NCBI GenBank assembly: GCA_021846285.1
Contig: JAJZCB010000028.1
Location: forward strand, 1 to 39,001
Origin: Bacillota bacterium
GTDB taxonomy: Bacteria; Bacillota; Bacilli; Alicyclobacillales; SLC66
Length of the DNA stretch: 39,001 nucleotides
Direction: 5' to 3'
Shown here: in pieces, positions 3 through 18,818 of the stretch
Layout of the letters: every line of letters begins with the position of its first letter
Numbering within the stretch: position 1 is the first letter of the stretch
Position numbers and translations under genes: made by a program
Notes under the pieces: generated by a model
What the model was told of the DNA's origin: nothing
The model's input: only the letters and a program-made list of their open reading frames with translations
Database searches by the model: none

Positions 3-38
3 TACGACGTGAGCACAGATGTTGAGTGCGCGGAGTGA
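3..38 (+). CDS. C-terminal tail of an upstream gene (partial)
   Basis: The frame starting at base 3 is open from the window edge and reads YDVSTDVECAE before TGA at 36-38. The stop lies 6 bases before the ATG of the HAD gene and overlaps its presumed ribosome binding site, which is typical of tightly packed co-transcribed genes. Nothing can be said about its function. It may also be a chance open frame, because only 11 codons are visible. Confidence 0.3.
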   Translation, partial: YDVSTDVECAE

Positions 39-44
39 CACGTC

Positions 45-1058
45 ATGGCTAAGCTGGTGTTGTTTGATCTGGATGGTGTTCTGTTGTCGGAAGACGCCTA
101 CTTATACGCTGCGGCTGCAACAGTCGGAGAATTTGTTTCTCTCCTGCATCCGCATGTTCATTTCAACCGCCCGTGGGAGTCTTCCACTCTGGATGATTTC
201 CGATTGCTGCGCGAATGGTTTTTGCCGCCCATGCTCCTGCGCGCGTTGCGGGAACGGGCGCTCAACAGCAACTGGGACAAAGCATACGCGCTTGTGGTTT
301 TGGCAGGTTGCGAGATTGCTGCACGAAAGCATGATTTTGCCGTTCAACACTTTGGCGCGGCCGCCATGGAACAATTGCGGACCATTGCGGGAAGTGGTCA
401 GGCTCTGATCGCGGAACTCAGGGATCGGGAGCGAAGCATGGCGCGCCCATGCGTAGACCTGATTCGGTTGGGCGCCGAAGGCATGTGTGGTGGAAATGAA
501 CGGGAACTCGCCTCTTCAGGCGATTTGTTTTCTGCTGTCCAGACAGTGTTTCAGCGCTACTATCTGGGAAACGGTCACGCATCCACCGCCTGCCTGCGCA
601 GAGGAACGTGCGCATTGGAGACACTGTTGGCAGACAAGGGATTACTCCATGGATTGCTGAACAGTCTGCGCGATCGCGGCGCTACACTAGGCATCGGTAC
701 TGGGCGTCCGCGCGCGGAAGCGCAGAAGACCCTGCTCCGGTTCGGGCTCTGGAACGCATTTGCGCCAGACCGCATCTGTACGATCGATGAGGTGCGCAGG
801 GAGGAGGAGAGTATGGGCGCCGCGCCATTTGCTTTGGCTAAACCCCATCCATACACGTACCAACGCAGCGCGAATGGATTTTCGCCGGGCGATGTTTACG
901 TCATTGGCGATTCCGTGTCTGACGCCATCGCCGCGAGCCGCGCCGGGTTTCACTTTCTGGGAGTGGGCGACGCGCTGACTTTTGCAGGGGTGTCAGAGGA
1001 TCCCCCTGCCACCTTCCGTGTTGTGACAGACTTGCCGATCGATCGCTTCTTCCCGTAA
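45..1058 (+). CDS. HAD-family hydrolase
   Basis: This 337-residue protein carries the ordered motifs of a haloacid-dehalogenase-type phosphatase. Motif I is FDLDGVLL with the nucleophile Asp8 and the acid/base Asp10. Motif II is GIGTGRP near residue 216, motif III is the lysine in AKPHP near 265, and motif IV is GDSVSDA near 288. The long insert between motifs I and II (about residues 20-200) would form a helical cap, larger than in small phosphoglycolate phosphatases. The expected reaction is Mg-dependent phosphomonoester hydrolysis in the cytoplasm; the substrate cannot be told from the sequence. The ATG is preceded by GGAG nine bases upstream. A diiron protein gene follows 85 bases later in the same direction. 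Confidence 0.85.
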   Translation: MAKLVLFDLDGVLLSEDAYLYAAAATVGEFVSLLHPHVHFNRPWESSTLDDFRLLREWFLPPMLLRALRERALNSNWDKAYALVVLAGCEIAARKHDFAVQHFGAAAMEQLRTIAGSGQALIAELRDRERSMARPCVDLIRLGAEGMCGGNERELASSGDLFSAVQTVFQRYYLGNGHASTACLRRGTCALETLLADKGLLHGLLNSLRDRGATLGIGTGRPRAEAQKTLLRFGLWNAFAPDRICTIDEVRREEESMGAAPFALAKPHPYTYQRSANGFSPGDVYVIGDSVSDAIAASRAGFHFLGVGDALTFAGVSEDPPATFRVVTDLPIDRFFP

Positions 1059-3773: not shown

Positions 3774-3801
3774 TTGAGTTTTGTTTTTAAACGCTTATAA
3801 T
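3774..3801 (+). promoter_or_regulatory. Sigma-A-type promoter of the peroxiredoxin gene
   Basis: TTGAGT (3774-3779) and a perfect TATAAT (3796-3801) are separated by 16 bases. The peroxiredoxin ATG lies 38 bases after the -10 box, with GAGGAGGG at 3826-3833 in between. A gene with signals this good is unlikely to be a decayed pseudogene. Confidence 0.65.
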
Positions 3802-3838
3802 AAGAGACGAGGGAAAAATCATATTGAGGAGGGATACG

Positions 3839-4321
3839 ATGCCAAAAGGTGCTACAGAGACCAAGACCCTGAAAGTTGGGGATCAGGCTCCGGATTTCAC
3901 GCTCCAGGCGCACGGCGGTCGCACCGTCACACTGTCTGAATTTCGCGGCAAAAACGTGCTGATCGCGTTTTATCCCTTAGACTGGACGCCCGTTTGAGGC
4001 GCGCAAATGCCATCCTACGAAGACGACCTCGCTCGCTTCGAGGAGCACAACGCCCAGGTTCTGGGCATCAGCGTAGACAGCTTGGCCAGTCATGAAGCTT
4101 GGCAGAAATCCATCGGGGGCATCACGTACCCGCTTTGCTCTGACTTCTATCCGCACGGATCAGTCGCTGAAAACTTCGGCGTGCTGCGGGCTGAAGGATA
4201 TAATGAGCGAGCGCTGTTCGTGATTGACGCGCAGGGTGTCGTGCGCTTCATTGACGTGCATCCGATCGACAAGCAGCCTGACAACGAAGAGATTTTCGAC
4301 GTACTCCGTCAGTTGCGGTAG
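3839..4321 (+). CDS. Peroxiredoxin (AhpC/TSA, Bcp/AhpE-like) with in-frame TGA at the catalytic position; candidate selenoprotein
   Basis: Read through the TGA at 3995-3997, the frame encodes a full-length 160-residue peroxiredoxin. It starts [20 protein letters not shown], continues with [16 protein letters not shown], has the active-site motif PLDWTPV-(TGA)-GAQMPSYE, and ends in a normal thioredoxin-fold C-terminus. Residue 53, encoded by TGA, is exactly the peroxidatic cysteine of the family, so selenocysteine is the most economical reading. Cys100 is the only other Cys/Sec-type residue and could act as resolving thiol. The gene has a good promoter, an excellent SD five bases before ATG 3839, and its own terminator. 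Calling the gene from the in-frame ATG 4007 would delete the catalytic residue and the first strands. Alternatives are a point nonsense mutation (TGC or TGT to TGA) or a sequencing error. No selenocysteine machinery gene is in the window. Confidence 0.8.
3996..4043 (+). promoter_or_regulatory. Candidate bacterial SECIS region downstream of the TGA codon
   Basis: Two pairings are visible by eye. GAGGCG (3996-4001) can pair with CG plus CCTC (4024-4025 and 4027-4030, A4026 bulged), enclosing about 22 bases right after the TGA. Alternatively CCTCG (4027-4031) pairs with CGAGG (4039-4043), with a 7-base loop starting 35 bases after the TGA. Bacterial SECIS elements are short hairpins in the coding region just after UGA. 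The guanine usually expected at the start of the apical loop is not obvious in the second hairpin. No folding was run, so this is only a candidate. Confidence 0.3.
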
Positions 4322-4345: not shown

Positions 4346-4382
4346 AGCCCGGCCACCTTTACGCAAGTGCGGTGGCCGGGCT
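4346..4382. terminator. Bidirectional terminator between convergent genes
   Basis: AGCCCGGCCACC (4346-4357) and GGTGGCCGGGCT (4371-4382) form a perfect 12-bp stem with a 13-base loop. An outer ACGACA/TGTCGT pairing may extend it. It sits between the peroxiredoxin gene and the convergent GH18 gene and probably ends both transcripts. Confidence 0.7.
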
Positions 4383-12721: not shown

Positions 12722-13816
12722 TTGCAAATCTTTGAAACGCTGGCCAAGTACGACTATGAACAGGTCGTGCTGTGCCAGGATCACACGTCGGGCCTCAAAG
12801 CGATTATTGCGATCCACGACACGACGCTGGGGCCCGCACTCGGCGGATGCCGCATGTGGACGTACGCGTCAGAGGAGGCGGCGATTACTGACGCATTGCG
12901 TTTATCGCGAGGGATGACGTACAAGGCGGCGGCGGCTGGACTTAATCTGGGCGGCGGCAAGACAGTTGTGATCGGCAACCCAAAAACAGACAAGAGCGAA
13001 GCGTTATTTCGCGCCTTAGGGCGCTATATCGAGGGCCTTCACGGTCGTTACATTACGGCTGAGGACGTCGGCACCACCGTGTCCGACATGGATTTGATCC
13101 ATCAGGAAACACGGTATGTGACGGGCGTATCCCAGGCGTACGGCAGTTCCGGAGATCCAAGCCCGGTGACCGCGCTTGGCGTCTTTCGCGGCCTCCAGGC
13201 ATCTGTCAGAGAAGTGTATGGAACCGACGATCTCGAAGGCAAGACGGTGGCTGTGCAGGGGTTGGGACATGTAGGCTATGATTTGTGTCGCCAACTCCAT
13301 GAAGTGGGCGCCAAACTGATTGTTACAGACATTTCGGAAGCTGTAGTCAAACGCGCGGCGGAAGAGTTTGGCGCCGCAGCGGTCGCTCCACAGGACATTG
13401 TTGCGCAAGAGTGCGACGTGTTTGCTCCCTGCGCGCTTGGGGCCGTCATATCGGATGACACGATTCCACTCTTGCGCTGCAGGATCGTCGCTGGATCCGC
13501 CAACAATCAGTTGGCGGAGGAACGTCACGGAGACACGTTGCATGAGATGGGTATTCTTTACGCGCCGGATTACGTCATCAATGCAGGCGGTCTGATCAAT
13601 GTGGCCGACGAACTCGAGGGTTACAATGCGGACCGCGCCCAGAAGAAAGTAGAAGGCATTTACGACATCATGCGCAAGATCTTCGCCATGTCGCGGGAGT
13701 TTCGCATTCCCACGTATCAGGCGGCGGACCGCATGGCCGAGGCGAGAATTGCGGCGATCAAGCAGGTGCGCAGCACGTTTTTACCAGTGTCACGGTCGCT
13801 GCTTCATCGCCAATAG
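12722..13816 (+). CDS. bcd: Leucine dehydrogenase
   Basis: The 364-residue protein is a typical Glu/Leu/Phe/Val dehydrogenase of the leucine type: [11 protein letters not shown] (36-46), catalytic Lys68 in MTYKAA and Lys80 in LGGGKTVV, then the NAD-binding [11 protein letters not shown] near 180-190. It reversibly deaminates leucine, isoleucine and valine to the 2-oxo acids with NAD. Those acids are the substrates of the dehydrogenase complex encoded next. The start is TTG 12722, eight bases after AGGGGG. No nearer ATG exists, and the N-terminus [16 protein letters not shown] fits the family. It is the first gene after the sigma-54 promoter. Confidence 0.95.
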
Positions 13817-13930
13817 TCGTTGCGCCTGCACAGGCTTGGGGTGATTGCCCGGGATTTTGGCGGCCGGGTTGTGAGTTTGTAGTCCAGCGTTCACGGTTAT
13901 GATACAGACTACGAAGAGAGGATGAGGAGC

Positions 13931-15352
13931 TTGGCCGAAGCGTTTGACGTCGTGATCCTGGGCGGCGGAACAGGCGGATACGTGGCTGCGATTCGCGGAG
14001 CGCAGCTTGGTTTGAGGGTGGCCGTGGTGGAACGGGGGAAACTTGGCGGCACCTGTCTGCACCAGGGATGCATCCCATCCAAGGCGCTCTTGCGGTCGGC
14101 GGAAGTGTATGCGACCACAAAAGAGGGATCTGCGTTTGGCGTGATGGCGGAGGGGCTTTCGTTTGACCTTGGTCGAGCCATGGAGCGCAAGGGCAAGATC
14201 GTAGACCAACTGCACAAGGGTGTCCAGTATCTGATGGGCAAGCACAAGATCACGGTCATGGACGGCCATGGGCGCGTCATGGGCCCCTCGATCTTTTCGC
14301 CGACCGCGGGCGCCGTCAGGGTAGAACGCAAGGATGGGGAGTCGGAGATTATCTCGCCCCGTTACACGGTGATCGCCACAGGTTCTCGCCCGCGCCCTCT
14401 GCCGGGGCTCCCCTTTGACGGCGAGCGCGTGATTTCGTCGGATGAGGCGCTTGAACTTAAGACCCTGCCACAATCGGTGCTGATCATCGGCGGCGGCGCG
14501 ATCGGCGTCGAATGGGCCTCCATGTTGGCCGATTTTGGGGTGGAGGTTACGGTGGTGGAAGCGCTGCCGCGGATTCTGTTTCAGGAGGATGAGGACGTCG
14601 CGGCGGAAATGGCGCGGGCGCTTAAGAAGCGGCGAATCAAAGTCATGGTGGACGCCGCGGTCGCCGCAGAGACATACCGAATTGCAGATGGGCAGGCTGT
14701 GATTGAGGTGTCGTTGCATGGCGCCGTACAGACACTGACCGCCGATATGATTCTTGTCGCCATCGGCCGACAGCCAAACATCGACGATATCGGGTTGGAG
14801 GCGACGCGCATTGAAGTGGAACGCGGCGCCATTGTCGTTGACCCGCATATGCGCACCAAAGAGAAGGCGATTTACGCCATCGGCGACGTTATCGGAGGTA
14901 TGCAACTCGCGCATGTGGCTGCTCACGAAGGCATATTGGCTATGGAGACAATCGCAGGTCTCAGTTCGGATCCGCTGCGTTATGAGCAGATTGCGCGCTG
15001 CACATACGGTCGACCGGAAGTGGCAAGCGTGGGGATTACGGAGGCACAGGCGAGAGAGCGCGGTCATGCGGTCAAAGCAGCGAAGTTTCAATTTCGGGCG
15101 ATTGGCAAGGCGCTTGTGTACGGCGAATCGGATGGATTTGTCAAGATTGTTGCTGACAGTGAGACCAATGATTTACTCGGCGTGCATATGATTGGCCCTC
15201 ATGTCACGGATCTCATCGCGGAGGCGGCGTTGGCGCATGTCCTCGATGCCGCGCCGTTTGAAATCGGTAACACCATCCATCCACATCCTACACTTGCGGA
15301 AGCGCTGGGTGAAGCGGCTCTTGCGGTCGATGGACTGGCGATACACGGGTAA
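13931..15352 (+). CDS. lpdV: Dihydrolipoyl dehydrogenase (E3) of the branched-chain complex
   Basis: The protein has the FAD motif VVILGGGTGGY at the N-terminus, the redox-active disulfide GGTCLHQGCIPSK (Cys42, Cys47), the NAD-binding IIGGGAIGVEWAS, and the C-terminal HPHPTLAEAL with the catalytic His. It reoxidises the dihydrolipoyl group of the E2 subunit, passing electrons to NAD. The frame can start at ATG 13922, which overlaps GAGAGG, or at TTG 13931, for which that SD is nine bases away. I prefer TTG 13931 (MAEAFDVVILGGG, 473 residues). It follows leucine dehydrogenase after a gap of about 110 bases with no convincing terminator, so it is probably in the same transcript. Confidence 0.92.
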   Translation: MAEAFDVVILGGGTGGYVAAIRGAQLGLRVAVVERGKLGGTCLHQGCIPSKALLRSAEVYATTKEGSAFGVMAEGLSFDLGRAMERKGKIVDQLHKGVQYLMGKHKITVMDGHGRVMGPSIFSPTAGAVRVERKDGESEIISPRYTVIATGSRPRPLPGLPFDGERVISSDEALELKTLPQSVLIIGGGAIGVEWASMLADFGVEVTVVEALPRILFQEDEDVAAEMARALKKRRIKVMVDAAVAAETYRIADGQAVIEVSLHGAVQTLTADMILVAIGRQPNIDDIGLEATRIEVERGAIVVDPHMRTKEKAIYAIGDVIGGMQLAHVAAHEGILAMETIAGLSSDPLRYEQIARCTYGRPEVASVGITEAQARERGHAVKAAKFQFRAIGKALVYGESDGFVKIVADSETNDLLGVHMIGPHVTDLIAEAALAHVLDAAPFEIGNTIHPHPTLAEALGEAALAVDGLAIHG

Positions 15353-15365
15353 GGGGGAAACAGTC

Positions 15366-16352
15366 ATGAGTCGACATGGTGAACTCGGACTTTCTGACGA
15401 CGATGTCCGCAATATGTATCGGTATATGCTGATGACCCGCGCTCTGGACGACCGTTTGTGGTTGCTCAATCGCGCAGGGAAGATTCCCTTTGTGGTCTCC
15501 TGCAAAGGTCAGGAAGGCGCTCAGGTGGGCGCCGCGTTTGCGCTTGAAGCTGGCCGGGATTACGTGTTGCCCTATTATCGGGACCTGGGGGTCGCGCTTG
15601 TGTTTGGACAGACGGCGACCGATGTGATGCTGAGCGGTTTTGCCAAGTGGGAAGATCCCAACAGCGGCGGGCGGCAAATGCCTGGTCACTTCGGATCCCG
15701 GAGACATCGCATTGTCACCGGTTCAAGTCCTGTTTCTACGCAAATTCCGCACGCGGTGGGCGTTGCGTTGGCAGCACGCCTGCGCGGTGAGCGGTTGGTT
15801 GCCTACACTTCGTTTGGAGAAGGGTCGAGCAACCAGGGAGATTTCCATGAAGCGTGCAATTTCGCCGGCGTGCACCGCCTGCCTGTAGTGTTTTTCTGCG
15901 AAAATAACGGATACGCGATCTCTGTGCCAGTTAAAAAGCAGCTTGGCTGTGAGCGGGTTGCGGATCGTGCGACTGGGTACGGATTCCCCGGGGTGACGGT
16001 GGACGGCAATGACGTTCTCGGCGTGTACTCGGCCATGAAAGAGGCTGTGGAGCGAGCTCTGCGGGGAGAGGGGCCGACGCTTGTCGAAGCGCTTACATAT
16101 CGACTGAATCCACACTCCAGTGATGATGATGATCGTGTGTACAGGACGCGTGAAGAGGTCGAAGACGCGAAAAATCGAGACGCGGTCATCGCGTTCGGTC
16201 AGTATTTGCAGGCGCAAGGGGTGCTCAGCGACGAAACGGTCGGCGACCTTCGCAAAGAGATTGCCCAACTGGTCGACGCGGCTACCGAGTATGCGGAGAA
16301 AGCTTCGTACGCACCGCCTGAGGAAGCGCTCAAATACGTCTACGCAGAGTAA
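15366..16352 (+). CDS. bkdAA: Branched-chain 2-oxoacid dehydrogenase E1 alpha
   Basis: The 328-residue product has the thiamine diphosphate-binding segment GEGSSNQGDFHEACNFAG followed by FFCENNGYAIS, and the substrate/phosphorylation-loop region YRLNPHSSDDDD. E1 decarboxylates branched 2-oxo acids and passes the acyl group to the lipoyl arm of E2. The frame is open upstream into lpdV, but ATG 15366 has AAGGGGGAA just before it and gives the usual family length. It starts 13 bases after lpdV and ends 12 bases before E1 beta, showing one operon. Confidence 0.93.
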   Translation: MSRHGELGLSDDDVRNMYRYMLMTRALDDRLWLLNRAGKIPFVVSCKGQEGAQVGAAFALEAGRDYVLPYYRDLGVALVFGQTATDVMLSGFAKWEDPNSGGRQMPGHFGSRRHRIVTGSSPVSTQIPHAVGVALAARLRGERLVAYTSFGEGSSNQGDFHEACNFAGVHRLPVVFFCENNGYAISVPVKKQLGCERVADRATGYGFPGVTVDGNDVLGVYSAMKEAVERALRGEGPTLVEALTYRLNPHSSDDDDRVYRTREEVEDAKNRDAVIAFGQYLQAQGVLSDETVGDLRKEIAQLVDAATEYAEKASYAPPEEALKYVYAE

Positions 16353-16364
16353 GGGGGAGTCGCC

Positions 16365-17348
16365 ATGACTGTCAAACTCTATATTGATGCGATCCGCGAT
16401 GCGATACAGGAAGAAATGCGCCGCGACGCCAGCGTCTTTGTGCTGGGAGAAGATGTCGGAGTGCGGGGCGGAGTGTTTCGCGTGACCCAGGGTCTCATTG
16501 AAGAGTTCGGTGAAGCGCGCATCATGGACACACCACTCGCTGAATCAGCCATCGCAGGCGTTGCGATTGGCGCCGCTGCTTACGGCATGAAGCCGATTGC
16601 AGAGATTCAGTTTGCGGATTTCATCATGCCCGCAATGAATCAGATCATCAGTGAAGCTGCAAAGATGCGGTATCGTTCCAACAATGACTGGCACTGTCCG
16701 CTCGTCATCAGGGCGCCTTACGGCGGAGGGGTGCATGGGGCACTGTACCACTCGCAAAGTCTGGAAGCGCTGTTCTATCATGTTCCTGGTTTGAAGATCG
16801 TTATGCCGGCGACTGCGGCGGACGCCAAGGGTCTCCTGACCAGTGCGATTCGCGATCCAGATCCTGTGCTTTACTTTGAACATAAGGGCATGTACCGACT
16901 GATCAAGGACGATGTGCCAGACGGAGAGCATACGGTGCCGATCGGCAAGGCAGCCGTGCGGCGGCAGGGCGCGGATATTACCGTCATCACGTACGGACTC
17001 ATGGTTCACCATGCCCTGGAAGCGGCGCAAGAGCTGGAGAGTGAAGGGGTGTCGACGGAACTCCTCGACTTGCGCACCGTGGCGCCGCTTGACCGCGATG
17101 CGATTGTGGCGGCGGCTCGCAAAACTGGGAAGGTGCTGATCGTGCACGAAGATAACAAAACGGGAGGCGTAGGCGCCGAAGTGTCGGCCATCATCGCAGA
17201 AGAGGCGTTGTTTGATCTGGACGCGCCGATCGCCCGGCTGTGCGGACCGGACATCCCCGCCATGCCATTCAGTCCGCCGATGGAACGCTTTTATATGCTG
17301 GATCCTGATAAAATCGCGGCAGCCATGCGACGGTTAGCGGCGTTTTAG
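16365..17348 (+). CDS. bkdAB: Branched-chain 2-oxoacid dehydrogenase E1 beta
   Basis: The 327-residue product shows the E1 beta landmarks: VFVLGEDVGVRGGVFRVTQG near the N-terminus, the MDTPLAESAIAGVAIGAAAYG block, PYGGGVHGALYHSQSLEA, and DLRTVAPLDRDAI in the C-terminal domain. It forms the alpha2-beta2 heterotetramer with the preceding gene product and completes the thiamine diphosphate site. AAGGGGGAG lies six bases before ATG 16365. It is the same length as Bacillus BkdAB. Confidence 0.95.
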   Translation: MTVKLYIDAIRDAIQEEMRRDASVFVLGEDVGVRGGVFRVTQGLIEEFGEARIMDTPLAESAIAGVAIGAAAYGMKPIAEIQFADFIMPAMNQIISEAAKMRYRSNNDWHCPLVIRAPYGGGVHGALYHSQSLEALFYHVPGLKIVMPATAADAKGLLTSAIRDPDPVLYFEHKGMYRLIKDDVPDGEHTVPIGKAAVRRQGADITVITYGLMVHHALEAAQELESEGVSTELLDLRTVAPLDRDAIVAAARKTGKVLIVHEDNKTGGVGAEVSAIIAEEALFDLDAPIARLCGPDIPAMPFSPPMERFYMLDPDKIAAAMRRLAAF

Positions 17349-17393
17349 ACCTTTTGAGATGGTGACCCGCATGTGGGGAAGGAGTTTTGCTGC

Positions 17394-18818
17394 ATGGCAG
17401 AAGTAAGGATGCCAAAGCTCGGCGAGAGTGTGACAGAAGGTACGATTGGCAAGTGGCTCAAGCAGGTGGGCGACGCAGTCTACAAATATGAACCGATCGC
17501 GGAAGTGACGACTGATAAAGTCAATGCGGAGATCCCATCGGAGTTTGACGGGGTGATTACGGAGATTTTGGTCGGTGAAAATGAGACCGTCAAGGTGGGA
17601 ACACCGCTCGCCGTCATCGCGCAAGAGGGCGCAGACGCTGCCGTGGAGGCAGCGCTGAAGGTGAACTCGGACGGAACGCCATTGGACGGACCGACGGATA
17701 TGCCCGCAGGTTCTGGAACGGACATTGCGCGTGACGGTCGGCAGGCCGGAGCAGCCGCAGCGGACCTTGGCGCGACGAATGCCACACCGGACACGGCGCA
17801 AGCCGTCGCGCCCCAGCACAGCGCACAGCGCGGCCGATACTCGCCTGTTGTGTTGCGGATGACCCAGGAACGCGGCATCGACATCAGCAAAATCAAAGGA
17901 TCGGGCATCGGTGGACGCGTGACGCGAAAGGATGTATTGGCGTACTTTCCCGTTTTAGTCGATCGCGCCTCAGTCGATGCGCTGTCATCAGGACATGACT
18001 CAGGTGCGCATGCGGCGGCGTCAGGTGCGCATGCGACGGCTTCAGCTGGCGCAGTCGCGACATCGTCCGAAACGAGTGGTTCCTTGTCCGCGCCGGCGGC
18101 GTCCGGGGAGTCGCCTGCACGCGAAGAGTGGGTGCCCGTGACGGCGATTCGCCGCACGATCGCACAACGCATGGTGCAAAGCAAACAGCAGGCCCCTCAC
18201 GCCTGGATGATGGTGGAGGTGGACGTGACCCCCTTGGCGCGATTGCGCAAGAGGGAAAAAAACGCCTTCAAGCAACGTGAAGGGATCGATCTGACCTATC
18301 TGCCATTCTTTATAAAATCGGCCGTTGAGGCGCTCAAAGAGTTCCCTATGGTAAACTCAACCTGGGCTGACGACAAGATCATTGTGAAGCGTGATCTTCA
18401 TATCTCCATCGCCGTCGCAACGGAAAACGCTCTGGTGGTCCCTGTCATCAAACATGCAGATCGCCTAAGTGTCTCAGGATTGGCGTCTGCCATCTCTGAC
18501 TTGGCGCGCAAGGCCAGAGGCGGCAAGCTGACTTTGGATGATGTGCAGGGTGGAACGTTTACGGTCAACAATACGGGCGCTTTTGGGTCCATTCTGTCGC
18601 AGCCCATTATCAACGCGCCGCAAGCGGCGATCCTGTCTGTAGAATCGATCGTACGGAGGCCAGTGGTGCGCGGGGATGATAGTATTGCCATTCGATCAAT
18701 GGTAAACTTGTGTATGAGCCTGGATCATCGCGTGCTGGACGGCTGGGTTGCCGGACAGTTTTTGCGGGCCGTCAAACTCCGGCTGGAGCAAATGGACGAA
18801 CAGACCAGTTTGTACTGA
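17394..18818 (+). CDS. bkdB: Dihydrolipoyl acyltransferase (E2) of the branched-chain complex
   Basis: The 474-residue protein has one lipoyl domain with Lys42 in TTDKVNAE as the lipoylation site. A peripheral-subunit-binding domain follows ([20 protein letters not shown], then [15 protein letters not shown]). A long Ala/Ser/Gly/His linker contains repeated SGAHA units. The catalytic core ends with DHRVLDGW, where His445 and Asp449 are the acyl-transfer residues. It moves the branched acyl group from E1 to CoA and forms the complex core. GGAG (17381-17384) is nine bases before ATG 17394; the GTG at 17373 overlaps the SD region and is rejected. An intrinsic terminator follows four bases after the stop. 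Confidence 0.95.

Follow-up and report, generated by a model that had tools for sequence, protein, structure and literature searches.

The question raised by this locus is whether a TGA codon lying in frame at the active site of a peroxiredoxin gene is read as selenocysteine (Sec), and which RNA signal would direct its decoding. The window, i.e. the whole stretch of 39,001 nt from one contig of a Bacillota bacterium that was analysed, contains the following features at and around this gene:

3839..4321, + strand: putative full-length Sec-peroxiredoxin gene of 160 residues including U53, the predicted Sec at TGA 3995-3997; stop codon TAG
3995..3997, + strand: predicted Sec-UGA at the peroxidatic position (TPVU), from the sequence and the alignment of homologues
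3774..3801, + strand: sigma-70-like promoter TTGAGT-16-TATAAT, 10 of 12 consensus positions (consensus match only)
3827..3832, + strand: Shine-Dalgarno sequence AGGAGG, 6 nt before ATG 3839, read directly in the sequence
4007..4321, + strand: ORF of 104 aa without the active site, which a standard annotation would call instead
4346..4382, + strand: possible terminator, 12-bp inverted repeat (4346-4357/4371-4382) whose loop has 13 nt and whose T tail is weak

Translation of 3839-4321 with TGA as U gave 160 residues with U53 as the only recoded codon. The AhpC-TSA domain (Pfam PF00578) matched on both sides of the TGA (residues 13-137, E-value 1.5e-39, 135 bits against a cut-off of 26), and the frame is intact across the codon, as the initial annotation had claimed. 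The TGA occupies the site of the peroxidatic Cys within the local motif T50-P-V-U53. The ORF list (minimum length 80 aa) contained just 4007-4321 in the frame of this gene, so that the predicted misannotation as a short protein from ATG 4007 was borne out. Promoter, Shine-Dalgarno sequence and terminator had all been described as strong; the first two were found as listed above, the terminator is weaker than described, and a terminator scan in which loops of 3-8 nt were allowed returned no site. The gene is flanked by an ORF carrying the C-terminal domain of an FGGY kinase and by a GH18-type ORF on the opposite strand. The bkd background noted earlier was recovered in the window as a cluster of the branched-chain 2-oxoacid dehydrogenase type (12722-18815), comprising an ELFV dehydrogenase, a pyridine nucleotide-disulphide oxidoreductase, an E1 component, a transketolase-type protein and a 2-oxoacid acyltransferase.

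Homologues were searched in 121 genomes (the own genome and 120 relatives) with a threshold of E ≤ 1e-25. Nineteen were found, 18 of which, the own included, contain one in-frame TGA; the sole exception, in genome G079, is a Cys protein with 43% identity. For a wider scan, an alignment of 17 TGA proteins was used as query and the best 80 of 123 relatives were kept. At the Sec position, these 80 have TGA in 77 cases, TGC in two and TGT in one, a proportion valid for this clade only, since the search patterns were drawn from TGA members, though the Sec codon was excluded from them. The alignment of homologues suggested by the initial annotation thus pairs TGA with Cys codons and places the TGA exactly at the peroxidatic Cys. 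Among the best 80, the nearest relative is the MAG Bacillota JA6.bin5 (L072, 98% identical) and the nearest named isolate is Ferroacidibacillus organovorans (89%). The same TGA peroxiredoxin was present in Tumebacillus, Neobacillus, Ammoniphilus, Mesobacillus and other Bacilli of this set, many of which presumably grow aerobically; the gene is therefore not the oddity in a Bacilli background for which it had been taken. Two copies, both with TGA, are located on the chromosome of Tumebacillus avium (L077 and L079).

The closest solved structure by sequence is Rv2238c of M. tuberculosis (E-value 7e-29), presumably AhpE, a 1-Cys enzyme, which has Cys at the active site where the window protein would have Sec. 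Like a protein of this type, the window family is without a conserved resolving Cys: C100, the sole other Cys of the window protein, is not conserved in the alignment, and 31 of 77 Sec proteins are Cys-free in the matched stretch (one of these 31, L136, is truncated). The protein would accordingly be of a 1-Sec type. Two curated NCBIfam models scored far below their cut-offs, namely the PrxU equivalog NF040737 (80.1 bits, cut-off 270) and Prx-SUH NF045827 (43 bits, cut-off 298). The former we take to describe the Eubacterium acidaminophilum type, whose Sec-peroxiredoxin, reportedly from the work of Sohling in 2001, is said to be the type example. The window protein shares with it the AhpC/TSA fold and, as predicted, Sec at the peroxidatic position, and a distal hairpin in the mRNA sets the window gene apart. 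Sec-peroxiredoxin is given as a known bacterial selenoprotein family (PF00578, TxxU; PMC13188914) and listed as a known family (PMC1794560). The latter source also has a table entry for Sec use in Bacillales, with 3 selenoproteins (PMC1794560). Thus, the protein is a further member of a known family.

For the RNA, the folding energy of 42-nt segments along the gene was compared with that after synonymous codon resampling. The 49 Bacillota genes had excess structure in segments starting at UGA+0 to +45, with -12.8 versus -6.4 kcal/mol at UGA+15 (mean z -2.9) and -12.1 versus -6.8 kcal/mol at UGA+45 (mean z -2.4), while the mean z of the remaining segment starts was between +0.2 and -0.9. For 28 genes of other phyla, the mean z was -2.3 at UGA+15 and weaker at +45 (-1.4), and dips were also present upstream (-1.3 and -1.2). 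The window gene alone reached z -2.9 at UGA+12 (-15.7 versus -8.7 kcal/mol) and -2.8 at +36, with lesser values to -1.4 elsewhere. Three Cys members of the clade had a mean z of -0.9 at +0 and of -0.05 to +0.74 at +12 to +60. Under a different null, dinucleotide shuffling, the post-UGA segment of the window was unexceptional (z -1.3, 20 of 200 shuffles as good), and a shorter piece gave z +0.7. Rfam contained no SECIS family matching the window stretch at E ≤ 10, nor any matching 12 loci at E ≤ 0.1, where five matches were to microRNA models below the gathering score. Two predicted hairpins make up the structural signal past the UGA:

4013..4044, + strand: proximal hairpin I, predicted fold, in which 69.1% of the cells of 76 aligned sequences pair
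4050..4068, + strand: distal hairpin II, predicted, core GCCCAG-GUU-CUGGGC at 4052-4066 with the loop at 4058-4060, 98.0% of 608 cells paired

The hairpins were evaluated in an alignment of 76 of the 78 sequences (A3; L101 and L109 were dropped as duplicates). Hairpin II extends over UGA+55..+73 with its loop at +63, i.e. 60 nt after the UGA. Two-sided changes were found in 43 cells, where shuffling gave 13.3 (0 of 500); its score was higher than that of all slid controls. The full set of eight pairs is present in 69 of 78 genes, whereas 200 synonymous resamplings gave an expectation of 2.7 and a maximum of 8; seven of the eight are present in the window itself. A FastTree tree with 80 rows, the three Cys members among them, had two-sided pair changes on 11 branches, and pairing was still present in 11 of 11 (one parsimony reconstruction). 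L144 and L147 retain the helix although two amino acids depart from the consensus (QVLG to EVFG). The GU in the loop does not count as independent evidence, since the loop coincides with a conserved Val codon. Hairpin I lies at about UGA+13..+52 across the alignment. Its two-sided changes likewise exceeded those in shuffles (36 versus 15.1, 0 of 500). Its covariation score was not clearly above that of the control slid by +2 (0.142 versus 0.145), and RNAalifold gave no consensus covering the whole of hairpin I, neither in the Bacillota nor in the other-phyla group. The RNA structure after the UGA is under selection, and most strongly so hairpin II. A small GGC/GCC hairpin just 3' of the UGA belongs to the Bacillota consensus and is not found in other phyla. 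A basal stem of UGA+4..7 with +76..79, seen in single folds, was rejected: its register shifts between phyla and it is missing in the Neobacillus types.

The published bSECIS model requires a loop 16-37 nt past the UGA, a G among the first two loop bases, a stem of 4-16 bp and an MFE ≤ -7.5 (PMC13188914). Hairpin II conforms in its 3-nt loop, which begins with GU, and in a stem within 4-16 bp, but the loop follows the UGA at a distance of 60 nt, so that a search demanding a distance of 16-37 nt would miss it. Some bacterial genes fall outside the model, and section 5 of the same source describes them no further (PMC13188914). No description of a distal bacterial SECIS hairpin was found in the literature searched, including the accessible parts of PMC13188914, PMC1794560, PMC1088965 and PMC5029168, with most subscription papers and all supplements outside the search. 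The new element is the RNA, namely a conserved hairpin farther from the UGA than the published model allows. Hairpin II presumably participates in the insertion of Sec. With chances just short of even, it may define a distinct class of bacterial SECIS, in which the SelB-contacting hairpin would lie about 60 nt beyond the Sec-UGA, the intervening hairpin would fold the spacer into reach, and which would be common to the Sec-peroxiredoxins of Bacillota, Acidobacteriota, Zixibacteria and Deltaproteobacteria.

Alternatively, the actual SECIS could be hairpin I, in canonical form, with hairpin II as an accessory, for instance for ribosome pausing. We regard this as a serious possibility, albeit one below even odds. 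Hairpin I sits at the canonical distance, the structure at UGA+15..+57 is strongly selected, and the published bSECIS rules are obeyed in 33 of 78 genes, where 22.7 were expected (sd 4.2, 10 synonymous resamplings, minimum-energy folds only). Other Sec genes also have their hairpin within the published distance: in selD1 of the own genome a loop GGC follows 17 nt after the UGA, and in L039, a distant Sec homologue, a loop GGA follows after 20 nt. In the same scan, however, which used minimum-energy folds only, no hairpin of the window qualified, and its closest relatives (L072-L074) failed as well. Moreover, only 69.1% of the cells of hairpin I pair and its covariation score is equalled by the +2 slide, whereas hairpin II is nearly completely paired and scores above every slide.

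In a tree of 90 rows (L136, being truncated, was omitted from the trees), a Zixibacteria clade contains the three Cys members L139, L145 and L149, which come from MAGs of the FCB group and of Zixibacteria and branch from within the Sec members; they belong to the same protein clade, but TGC or TGT replaces TGA. The nine distant plasmid Cys homologues group separately, as a second block. As the tree is midpoint-rooted, a change from Sec to Cys is the presumed direction for the nested three. Hairpin II was compared in 13 Cys rows (the three nested, the nine plasmid homologues and L040); L160, fetched as a Cys control, did not match the active-site pattern and was omitted. L139, L145 and L149 keep 6, 3 and 5 of the eight pairs in weak folds, and this weakening may be a single evolutionary event. 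Two of the ten other Cys rows retain the hairpin (L153 with 8/8 and L152 with 7/8 pairs). Conversely, hairpin II is absent from L039 (3/8 pairs), the most distant Sec homologue, and is thus not required in every Sec-peroxiredoxin. The L039 gene (L039:1513-1974) is a divergent Sec-peroxiredoxin of the same class with 40% identity, whose short hairpin is at the published distance and not distal.

If translation instead ended at the UGA and restarted at ATG 4007, the product would be a 104-aa fragment. The ORF for it exists, 47 of 78 genes have a GAGG ahead of the restart codon, and this codon is ATG in 69 of 78. In the remaining nine, however, it is ATA, ATT, TTG or GTG, and GAGG is absent in all genes of other phyla as well as in L076, L112 and L116. 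Further, the first 52 codons, located 5' of the TGA, are conserved as protein in the alignment, the fragment would be devoid of the active site, and the TGA form co-occurs with selA. A restart is thus very unlikely.

Of the selenocysteine machinery, the own genome encodes SelA (590 bits) and SelB (384 bits) together with two SelD proteins (401 and 351 bits), all above the curated cut-offs. Both selD genes (L016, C33:15619-16545, and L017, C112:2510-3427) contain one in-frame TGA each, near the N-terminus; two Sec-SelD copies in one genome would be unusual. Matches to Fdh-alpha in the own genome had no internal stop and hence do not demonstrate Fdh as a selenoprotein there. Across the survey, selA was found in 18 of 18 TGA-peroxiredoxin genomes compared to 52 of 121 overall (P 3e-8, uncorrected for relatedness). 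In a comparison set of 20 other genomes, tRNA-Sec was present in 19, i.e. in G003, G005 and all 17 other TGA-peroxiredoxin genomes tested, and ARAGORN confirmed these 19 with the anticodon tca; both same-genus genomes tested (G001 and G002) have it. For G079, the genome with the Cys peroxiredoxin, no tRNA-Sec was found at E ≤ 1e-7.

The proposed check for sel genes was hence successful for selA, selB and selD, but four attempts to locate selC in the own assembly of 164 contigs were negative. Using the Rfam tRNA-Sec model, 150 of 345 candidates were scored, giving 19 matches of which only the best was above the gathering score; ARAGORN, applied to eight loci from this model, reported no tRNA-Sec, the best being a tRNA-Ser. 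Searches with a loose pattern, with a 501-base stretch from the same genus and with a 38-base conserved pattern (3 mismatches), each performed without a positive control, were negative in the own assembly, as was ARAGORN beside the selA, selB and selD genes. When the selC region of G001 (3,093 bases) was compared to contig C139 of the own assembly, the match was confined to the last 551 bases; thus, the selC neighbourhood itself is absent from the assembly. Given tRNA-Sec in 17/17 other and selA in 18/18 TGA-peroxiredoxin genomes, the missing selC is probably an assembly gap. It contrasts with the presence, in the own assembly, of selA and selB and of three genes that contain a UGA in frame.

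That a suppressor or an altered genetic code inserts Cys or Trp at the UGA is highly improbable: no point favouring it was found, selA, selB and selD are present in the own genome, tRNA-Sec occurs in the 17 other TGA-form genomes tested, and TGA still works as a stop codon, as it ends 5 of 16 neighbouring ORFs in the window. A sequencing error or a decayed gene, for which the fragmentation of the assembly could speak, is practically excluded, since 77 of the best 80 other records share the TGA at this codon, the nearest being 98% identical.

Judged from sequence comparison, UGA 3995-3997 very probably encodes the catalytic-site Sec of an AhpC/TSA peroxiredoxin, and the conservation of the TGA, the sel genes and the co-occurrence with selA support the probable selenoprotein of the initial annotation. 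For the whole account, i.e. an AhpE-like one-Sec peroxiredoxin whose UGA is decoded via SelB and tRNA-Sec with two hairpins as putative SECIS, we estimate a probability of about 0.93. Selenophosphate derived from SelD would be used by SelA to make Sec, and SelB with tRNA-Sec would decode UGA 3995-3997. The Sec selenolate at the peroxidatic position would then attack the peroxide, and, as there is no conserved resolving Cys, an external thiol would presumably regenerate the enzyme. Hairpins I and II may jointly form the SECIS signal, with hairpin II as the better-conserved candidate for the contact to SelB and hairpin I compacting the spacer. Hairpin II offers a direct test case for the reach of SelB from the UGA, and a distal element would broaden the rules for predicting bacterial selenoproteins. 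Standard annotation would truncate this catalytic-site selenoprotein in many Bacilli genomes.

In L144, a long, near-perfect inverted repeat (L144:2698-2805, about -62 kcal/mol as RNA) is located ~200 nt upstream of the Sec-peroxiredoxin; it first became visible as sub-threshold matches of the microRNA type on both strands.
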